A DNA stretch of 23,445 bases from a virus. The translations under genes and the position numbers were made by a program. The notes under the pieces are model-generated. The model did not search any database and was not told the DNA's origin. It was given only the letters and a program-made list of their open reading frames with translations. The stretch lies in IMG/VR virus record IMGVR_UViG_3300042507_003938, positions 1-23,445 of that record; one strand, 5' to 3'. Positions 15,578 to 22,480 of the stretch are shown in pieces. The stretch's first letter is position 1, and each line of letters starts with the position of its first letter.

Positions 15578-15700
15578 ATGAGAACCTCTCTGAAGTATAG
15601 ACTGTATTACCTCAAAAGAAGCCTGAATTCCCTAAGAGTTGCTATGGTGTTTCTGTGGATGGCTGTAGGTACTGTAGGGAAAAATTCGAAATTCCTCTGA
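15578..15700 (+). CDS. possible small membrane peptide (weak)
   Basis: A 40-codon frame with a basic N-terminus and a hydrophobic run (RVAMVFLWMAVGTVG). There is no good ribosome binding site or promoter of its own. It may be only an open stretch between the gene block and the terminator. Confidence 0.3.
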   Translation: MRTSLKYRLYYLKRSLNSLRVAMVFLWMAVGTVGKNSKFL

Positions 15701-15763
15701 TTCCGCTCCGGAAAAAATTTTGGTTTCCATGGGTTCCACTTCCAGATTTCTAGTTACGGGTCT

Positions 15764-15791
15764 AGGGGTTTGACCTCCAACCCTTTTTTTT
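15764..15791 (+). terminator. intrinsic terminator
   Basis: A 7-base stem AGGGGTT / AACCCTT with one G-T pair and an 8-base loop, followed by eight T. It closes the run of small genes driven from P3. The 15701-15870 stretch holds otherwise nothing recognisable apart from a CT-rich segment. Confidence 0.75.
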
Positions 15792-15870
15792 AATTTCACT
15801 AAGTCCTCCAAACCTTATCCTTCCAGCAACACCCAAGCCACCTCAGAACCCACAAAGTACCACAAAGCCC

Positions 15871-16745: not shown

Positions 16746-16777
16746 AGTCCTTAGTGCAATGCTAAGGACTTTTTTTG
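16746..16777 (+). terminator. strong intrinsic terminator
   Basis: Perfect 9-base stem AGTCCTTAG / CTAAGGACT around a 7-base loop, then a run of seven further T. It ends the unit driven by P5 and isolates promoter P6. A 14-base palindrome (16730-16743) lies directly upstream of it. Confidence 0.93.
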
Positions 16778-16787
16778 GTATATACCA

Positions 16788-16816
16788 TTGACAATTCGGG
16801 GGTATATCTGTATTAT
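16788..16816 (+). promoter_or_regulatory. promoter P6 (sigma-70 type) without an obvious gene
   Basis: TTGACA at 16788-16793 and TATTAT at 16811-16816, spacer 17. The 340 bases downstream contain no credible plus-strand gene. Confidence 0.8.
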
Positions 16817-17157
16817 TACACCATAGCACTGGACATCCGAGGCTCTAATCCACTCCTGCACTATATGTTATCATTATTGCAATAGAGTGTCCTTCTGATA
16901 AGATTCCTGCCAGAAGGGTATCTCCGAGGCTTTTTCGGGCCACTATGCTATACCCAATGCCAGTATTTTAACCCCTCTGAGACCCTCTGAACCTGTCCTG
17001 CCAGTATAAATTCTGAAAGGATGGCTCGGTGGCTCATGCAAAGACCTGATCCCCAGAGGAACCAGCGAGGAATCATGCGACACTTTCCCCCACTTTTTAA
17101 CACCTTGATAATACCGCAGAATTCCGCAAGAATCCGCACAAAACCTGTGGATTACCA
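16817..17157 (+). ncRNA. candidate small RNA region behind promoter P6
   Basis: No frame with a plausible start and ribosome binding site is seen, and the minus-strand frames here overlap promoter P7. Structure is visible: CCTTCTG/CAGAAGG (16891-16897 with 16911-16917) is a 7-base hairpin, GGACA and TGTCC (16831-16835, 16888-16892) could pair, and TCCGAGGCT occurs twice. No terminator is obvious, so the RNA end is unknown. Three CCGCA repeats lie near the right edge. The alternative is plain intergenic DNA. Confidence 0.35.
17114..17138. repeat. three CCGCA repeats at 10-base spacing
   Basis: CCGCA occurs at 17114, 17124 and 17134, within an AAT-rich context, so each copy faces the same side of the helix. 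The array ends 19 bases upstream of the -35 of promoter P7. Confidence 0.6.
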
Positions 17158-17186
17158 TTGACAATTCCCTGGCATTCCTCTATACT
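17158..17186 (+). promoter_or_regulatory. promoter P7 (sigma-70 type)
   Basis: TTGACA at 17158-17163, TATACT at 17181-17186, spacer 17, followed by GTATCC then ATG. The expected start site coincides with the ATG at 17193. Confidence 0.92.
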
Positions 17187-22290: not shown

Positions 22291-22319
22291 AGAGCCTCCG
22301 CATAGGAGGCTCTTTTTTT
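22291..22319 (+). terminator. strong intrinsic terminator
   Basis: Perfect 9-base stem AGAGCCTCC / GGAGGCTCT with a 5-base loop, then a run of T. Ends the AAA+ ATPase unit 32 bases after its last stop. Confidence 0.95.
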
Positions 22320-22353
22320 GGCTGATATCTCCATATGGACCACTACCAGAAAA

Positions 22354-22382
22354 CCTCCTATAACCCTTCCTAGCCTCCCGTC
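22354..22382. repeat. 29-base direct repeat, copy B
   Basis: Identical to 19509-19537. It is followed by a GGACCG...CGGTCC inverted repeat. The 22320-22451 stretch holds this repeat, the inverted repeats and no gene. Confidence 0.85.
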
Positions 22383-22422
22383 GGACCGCATAGCCACTAG
22401 GTCCTGAGCGGTCCAGTAGCCA

Positions 22423-22441
22423 TGTTGTCAAAATTACAACA
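22423..22441. repeat. inverted repeat TGTTGT-N7-ACAACA
   Basis: Six-base arms at 22423-22428 and 22436-22441, ten bases before the -35 of P14. A related hairpin precedes P15. Confidence 0.6.
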
Positions 22442-22451
22442 AAAAAAGTCC

Positions 22452-22480
22452 TTGACAATTCGGCATGGATACCCCATAAT
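22452..22480 (+). promoter_or_regulatory. promoter P14 with inverted repeat over the -10
   Basis: TTGACA at 22452-22457, CATAAT at 22475-22480, spacer 17. Arms ATGGATAC (22465-22472) and GTATCCAT (22481-22488). Matches P9 over about 40 bases, including the whole spacer. Confidence 0.93.

Follow-up and report, generated by a model that had tools for sequence, protein, structure and literature searches.

The stretch of DNA analyzed here (the window) is the 23.4-kb virus record IMGVR_UViG_3300042507_003938. It encodes the RNR small subunit, an exonuclease and a phrog_459 peptidase, the best isolate matches of which are cyanophages of the Kyanoviridae. These genes and the peptidase matches mark the window as part of a T4-like phage. 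With a cut-off of at least 11 of the 12 consensus letters, sigma-70-type promoters occur 16 times on the plus strand and once on the minus strand, compared to 0.5 expected per strand from dinucleotide shuffles at the same cut-off. The promoter set of the window is real and one-directional. The locus considered here is that of P6, which the initial annotation had correctly taken for a full member of this set (11 of 12 letters) lying right behind a strong terminator (an 11-pair stem at 16746-16770 followed by a T run). Its features are the following:

16746-16777, plus strand: intrinsic terminator (stem and T run) at the end of the upstream 98-aa gene, separating P6 from it
16788-16816, plus strand: promoter P6, TTGACA-17-TATTAT, 11 of 12 matches, in the co-directional set of 16
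16822-16859, plus strand: putative 5' RNA module of type I, CATAGCACTGGacatCCGAGGCTCTAATCCaCtCCTGC, beginning at the predicted transcription start
16860-17075, plus strand: conserved noncoding body of the predicted P6 transcript, defined by block identity to the relatives L103, L002 and L105, with no shared ORF
16891-16917, plus strand: 7-bp hairpin, in the window and L103 only
17076-17157, plus strand: stretch up to P7, not conserved, in which a 10-bp direct repeat occurs about three times
17158-17186, plus strand: promoter P7, which drives the next gene, 370 bp downstream of P6

Coding capacity and sequence conservation

Relatives of the window were collected via the Gp37/68 gene and the 98-aa gene and then aligned. 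One of them, L102, is identical to the window; the divergent ones are L002 (161 kb), L103 (163 kb) and L105 (143 kb). All four have kept the P6 transcript region, and in the three divergent phages a terminator hairpin stands at the equivalent place before P6 but differs in sequence.

No believable gene follows P6, as had been noted before. Each of the six frames is interrupted both in the window and in L002, L103 and L105, and none is common to these four phages, which led us to reject a protein reading of the stretch. A small unannotated protein could be sought in the sole plus-strand ORF behind P6 (17021-17161, 46 aa) or in one of some minus-strand ORFs. However, no such ORF is kept in any of the three relatives, the 46-aa frame included, and we regard this explanation as very improbable. 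A conserved protein in relatives had been named as the finding that would overturn the noncoding reading; it was looked for and not found, so that the reading stands. The G+C content is 48% in 16820-17075 and 45% in 17076-17157, compared to 38% for the whole window, which places the P6 transcript region at the 97th percentile of the window.

The noncoding sequence itself is conserved. From 16843 to 17075 the identity to L103, L002 and L105 is mostly 59-91% by block, whereas the adjacent 98-aa gene is 58-68% identical to the same three relatives. Block by block the values are 82-88% (16843-16859), 59-88% (16860-16893), 68-87% (16916-16952) and 62-72% (16973-17075), with two more variable blocks in between (16894-16915, 39-91%; 16953-16972, 29-65%). 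Beyond 17076 (17076-17150) the identity falls to 27-31%, giving the conserved region a sharp 3' edge. Judged against the neighboring gene, the noncoding stretch thus is under comparable or greater constraint, with a clear 3' edge. The full 255 nt are common to only four phages among the matches listed.

Two other noncoding stretches of the window are conserved as well. One, at 15671-15810, has a terminator at its end (15764-15785), is 84.8% identical to L002 over 165 nt and has homologues in L103 and L105, too; it may be a 3' RNA. The other lies at 22291-22440 (L108 9400-9690), where the sequence behind a terminator is noncoding and 92% identical to L002.

The 5' module

In the window, positions 16820-16859 are identical to L064 in 37 of 40 letters (92.5%). 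At least 30 copies of this module, of three sequence types, were found in related T4-like phage contigs (about two dozen sequences). In 27 of the 30, the -10 element of a sigma-70 promoter has its end exactly 5 or 6 nt ahead of the module; the copies are phylogenetically related, so these are not 27 independent events. From this distance the first base of the module is the predicted transcription start, 16822 in the window, and the start near 16822 predicted in the initial annotation coincides with the module boundary. The type II module (TATTGGAGATGCAGC...CTGGTATCCTAATCCACTCCTGC) is present in L002, L103 and L105, and a third type (ATTCGAAAGCAGGACTGGGATGCACACGGATCCTGC and variants) occupies the same position. 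Common to the three types, in most copies, is CTGG...CCTG[C/G]. Two copies each are present in L064, L090/L099, L093, L098/L088 and L095, and one in L167; L096 has the module core alone, and its membership is uncertain.

The first 23 nt of the predicted transcript (+1 to +23) are only about 35% identical between the window and L103, L002 and L105 (37% for L103), whereas the flanking promoter and core match. As the module of the window is L064-like instead, we conclude that the module was exchanged while promoter and body were kept. Such swapping of module types between phages could also be expected from a promoter cassette that is selfish or neutral, like the mobile regulatory cassettes of T4-type phages, and whose noncoding part plays no role of its own. 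A unit of about 100 bp consisting of a promoter plus CCACTCCTGC does stand just before a promoter in L108 (from the same genome as L103) and is missing from the window at 22440-22452. But a neutral unit would keep neither 215 nt of body in divergent phages nor, in 27 of 30 copies, so exact a start-site register, and we think it improbable that P6 and the sequence behind it are nothing else.

The distance from the module start to the next promoter is +68 to +150 in one group of copies and +312 to +570 in another, with +336 in the window; behind a few copies no next promoter was found. These distances bear on the possibility that the stretch is a cis-acting leader, in which the nascent 5' module alters its own RNA polymerase so that it reads through terminators into the downstream genes, similar to the putRNA of phage HK022. 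The module begins at +1 of an early-type promoter, like putL, and early promoters are located upstream of both putL and putR (PMC9378689); the module is present twice in several genomes; and from P6 to 22291 the plus strand is free of intrinsic terminators, save one weak match inside the Gp37/68 gene. Yet most copies have an independent promoter behind them, and the two long stem-loops of putRNA have no counterpart in a module that folds no better than shuffles in seven of eight variants. We therefore consider a leader of this kind rather unlikely.

By eye, the second copies in L093, L095, L064 and L088 have a convergent promoter on the opposite strand about 75 nt past the module start (TTGCC[AT] or TTGACA, a spacer of 18-19 nt, TATAAT or TACAAT). 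Such promoters would yield antisense RNA to the module.

RNA structure and repeats

The 7-bp hairpin to which the initial annotation had drawn attention does exist: CCTTCTG (16891-16897) and CAGAAGG (16911-16917) form a stem better than 99.7% of shuffles, and six of the pairs are kept in L103. At the same position L002 and L105 have nothing beyond chance (p = 0.32 and 0.15), which rules out positional conservation in these two phages; a stem-loop behind P6 is seen in the window and L103 only. The duplication of TCCGAGGCT is likewise present (16836 and 16923), but it looks coincidental, since L002, L103 and L105 keep the second place only.

A conserved fold was not detected by alifold (z = +0.26 on the plus strand and -0.75 on the minus strand). 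Compensatory changes were absent, so the covariation of paired bases in relatives that had been suggested as a check was looked for without success. One minus-strand sub-window reached z = -3.9. Folding of the module gave z = +0.51 and that of a 121-nt stretch z = -0.71; the one variant that folded better than its shuffles was the type III module of L179, with a GCAGGA/TCCTGC hairpin (z = -3.45). Two further candidates were discarded: an invariant long-range helix (CCGAG/CUCGG with UUUUCGG/CUGAAAGG), which shows no covariation, and an 8-nt inverted repeat (TAATCCAC/GTGGATTA), which is not kept in the relatives. There is no intrinsic terminator at the 3' end of the predicted P6 RNA; a discrete RNA would hence need Rho or processing, and this is a main weak point of the RNA reading.

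Searches against known RNAs and other genomes

Rfam contained no family matching the element at gathering or relaxed thresholds, the one match of this search being a chance-level SECIS in L089. No tRNA or tmRNA was detected. A tRNA-like loop, CTCTAAT with a CUA 'anticodon', has no stem, is not kept in all module types and was dismissed. The same applies to a lambda boxA (GCUCU), which is lost in the type II module.

Isolate phages and plasmids gave no match to the element, and the genome collection of bacteria and archaea gave none to the full core. When the core was relaxed, 32 single matches turned up there, scattered and with flanks that were not shared. A CRISPR-repeat mimic was rejected because the 16-letter core occurs in bacterial and archaeal genomes as scattered single matches and never in arrays. 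A wider pattern search in viral sequences added matches that were all coding and at chance level.

Pairing with E. coli 16S, 23S, RNase P, tmRNA and 6S RNA was unconvincing: the best pairing had a mean of -29.2 compared to shuffle minima down to -28.5 (12 shuffles), so that the top score is barely beyond the shuffles. TCTAATCC matches the 790 loop of 16S.

Neighborhood of the locus

In the five second-tier genomes having the phrog_459 peptidase gene, this gene precedes the module; in 7 of 10 genomes the module is followed on the same strand, after 0.5-1.5 kb, by the Gp37/68 gene. In many relatives the equivalent intergenic locus contains arrays of the DnaA box TTATCCACA, which are unusual for T4-like phages. 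Direct-repeat arrays of this box are located at 2150-2209 in L167, 1335-1394 in L172, 1124-1170 in L134, 2131-2143 in L140 and 3660-3714 in L143. Over 45 loci, clustered DnaA boxes were found 31 times upstream and never downstream of the ATPase gene, in sequence of similar length on both sides. L167/G008 has the module and DnaA boxes together: the sole DnaA-box cluster of the 177-kb G008 (76384-76443) is about 220 bp downstream of its module at 76665.

Perfect copies of a Fur-like palindrome, TGAGAATnATTCTCA, are present between genes in L103 (5643), L064 (5136), L140 (2097), L161 (1942) and L099 (1453), whereas by our own estimate, which assumes uniform base use, about 0.01 would be expected by chance in the sequence scanned. 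The palindrome occurs a single time in the 163-kb G002, 230 bp past the module. In the window, 16820-17157 contains neither a strict DnaA box nor a Fur palindrome. About three 10-bp direct repeats (CCGCAgaatt, CCGCAagaat and CCGCAcaaaa; CCGCAnaant) are found at 17110-17153 just upstream of P7, spaced by one helical turn, and occupy the place where some relatives have DnaA boxes or a Fur-like palindrome. Sites of the DnaA or Fur type may serve the promoter of the next gene, a replication origin or the titration of host proteins.

In the relatives the locus is thus linked to sites of the host DnaA and Fur type, and a role at the DNA level is a possibility. The stretch could be a transcription-driven replication origin or a control region binding host proteins, where transcription from P6 opens the DNA or primes replication, host DnaA or Fur binds nearby, and the conserved sequence is active as DNA or as an RNA-DNA hybrid. 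The box arrays upstream of the ATPase gene, the cluster in G008 and the palindrome in G002 are in line with this, as are the lack of a conserved RNA fold and the architecture of T4 oriF and oriG, which consist of a promoter plus an unwinding element (PMC4412123). However, the window has no such strict sites behind P6, its stretch is richer in G+C than the genome, which is the opposite of an unwinding element, and the skew has no clear switch at the locus. A conserved 5' end of the transcript is not required for an origin. We consider an origin or control region unlikely, though it is the alternative that we take most seriously.

Proposed interpretation: an RNA active via its 5' module

Our preferred interpretation, to which we give moderate confidence, is that the P6 stretch encodes a phage noncoding RNA that targets a factor of the host or the phage by way of its 5' module. 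P6 would drive this RNA, probably early in infection, from about 16822; some 255 nt of it, up to about 17075, are conserved, and its essential part would most likely be the first 40 nt or so. A host or phage protein or other factor could bind the module, or the module could pair with an RNA, making the transcript a regulator or a decoy. That it is a leader for one particular gene is improbable, since a separate promoter stands behind most copies and modules swap between similar flanks. With the start-site register being so exact, it is hard to see the RNA 5' end (or the initially transcribed DNA) as irrelevant, and the swapping of module types speaks for an element that is recognized. It is the combination of start-site register, separate promoters and module exchange that makes us favor a noncoding RNA over an origin, a cis-acting leader or a cassette.

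The initial annotation is thus confirmed in its observation of a promoter followed by a noncoding stretch. Its interpretation as a regulatory or decoy RNA is partly supported: conservation independent of any reading frame and a module locked to the predicted start speak strongly for a promoter-made noncoding RNA, whereas the hairpin and the 9-nt repeat, on which a regulatory or decoy role had been based, are not conserved. The locus probably represents a conserved family of phage noncoding RNAs, or an RNA-marked control locus, that apparently has no earlier description. A more far-reaching idea, to which we give little credence, is a family of RNAs or RNA-controlled replication loci with an exchangeable 5' module of about 40 nt and host DnaA and Fur sites in the relatives.

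Comparison with known systems

Solitary repeat units, the RNA anti-CRISPRs (Racr), are promoter-proximal noncoding elements of phages that are not linked to cas genes and act as RNA decoys (PMC10651486). The P6 element is similar in that it lies directly downstream of a promoter and is unlinked to cas, and high expression and decoy action would be expected of it. Unlike for Racr, no resemblance to a CRISPR repeat was found, as there was neither an Rfam match nor an array of the core in the genome collection. The put element of HK022 has about 70 nt and two stem-loops (PMC9378689). It shares with the P6 module the start at the transcription start of an early promoter and the presence of two copies in some genomes, but the P6 module has no stable conserved fold.

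T4 oriF and oriG are likewise a promoter and then a noncoding stretch in a T4-like phage. The P6 locus differs from them by its conserved transcript 5' end and by having no AT-rich unwinding element, and the DnaA boxes near the locus in relatives are not a feature of T4 origins. As far as they are described in a later article (PMC4177764), the mobile regulatory cassettes of T4-type phages (Arbiol et al. 2010) are host-type promoter units that vary among related T4-like genomes; the presence or absence of a unit between close relatives is seen here as well (the extra unit of L108), but what the P6 locus keeps is a specific transcript 5' end and not just a promoter with a stem-loop, the stem-loop being seen in the window and L103 only.

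Intergenic noncoding RNAs have been seen by RNA-seq, for instance, in phage K (PMC9241854). There, as predicted for P6, noncoding transcripts come from intergenic promoters of a large lytic phage; the phages are unrelated, and a sequence family or a start-site module is not among the features described in the part of that study considered here. With its antisense RNA, a second module copy facing a convergent promoter would resemble the primer RNA of ColE1 and its antisense regulator. To our knowledge, such an anatomy would have no precedent among T4-like phages. What is known of noncoding RNAs in large lytic phages mostly consists of RNA-seq peaks without an explanation. In the present case comparison alone defines a family, predicts its exact 5' end and provides a small segment as the candidate for function, types that can be exchanged and a locus in synteny, and since the candidate segment of this defined family has only about 40 nt, its function is directly testable.
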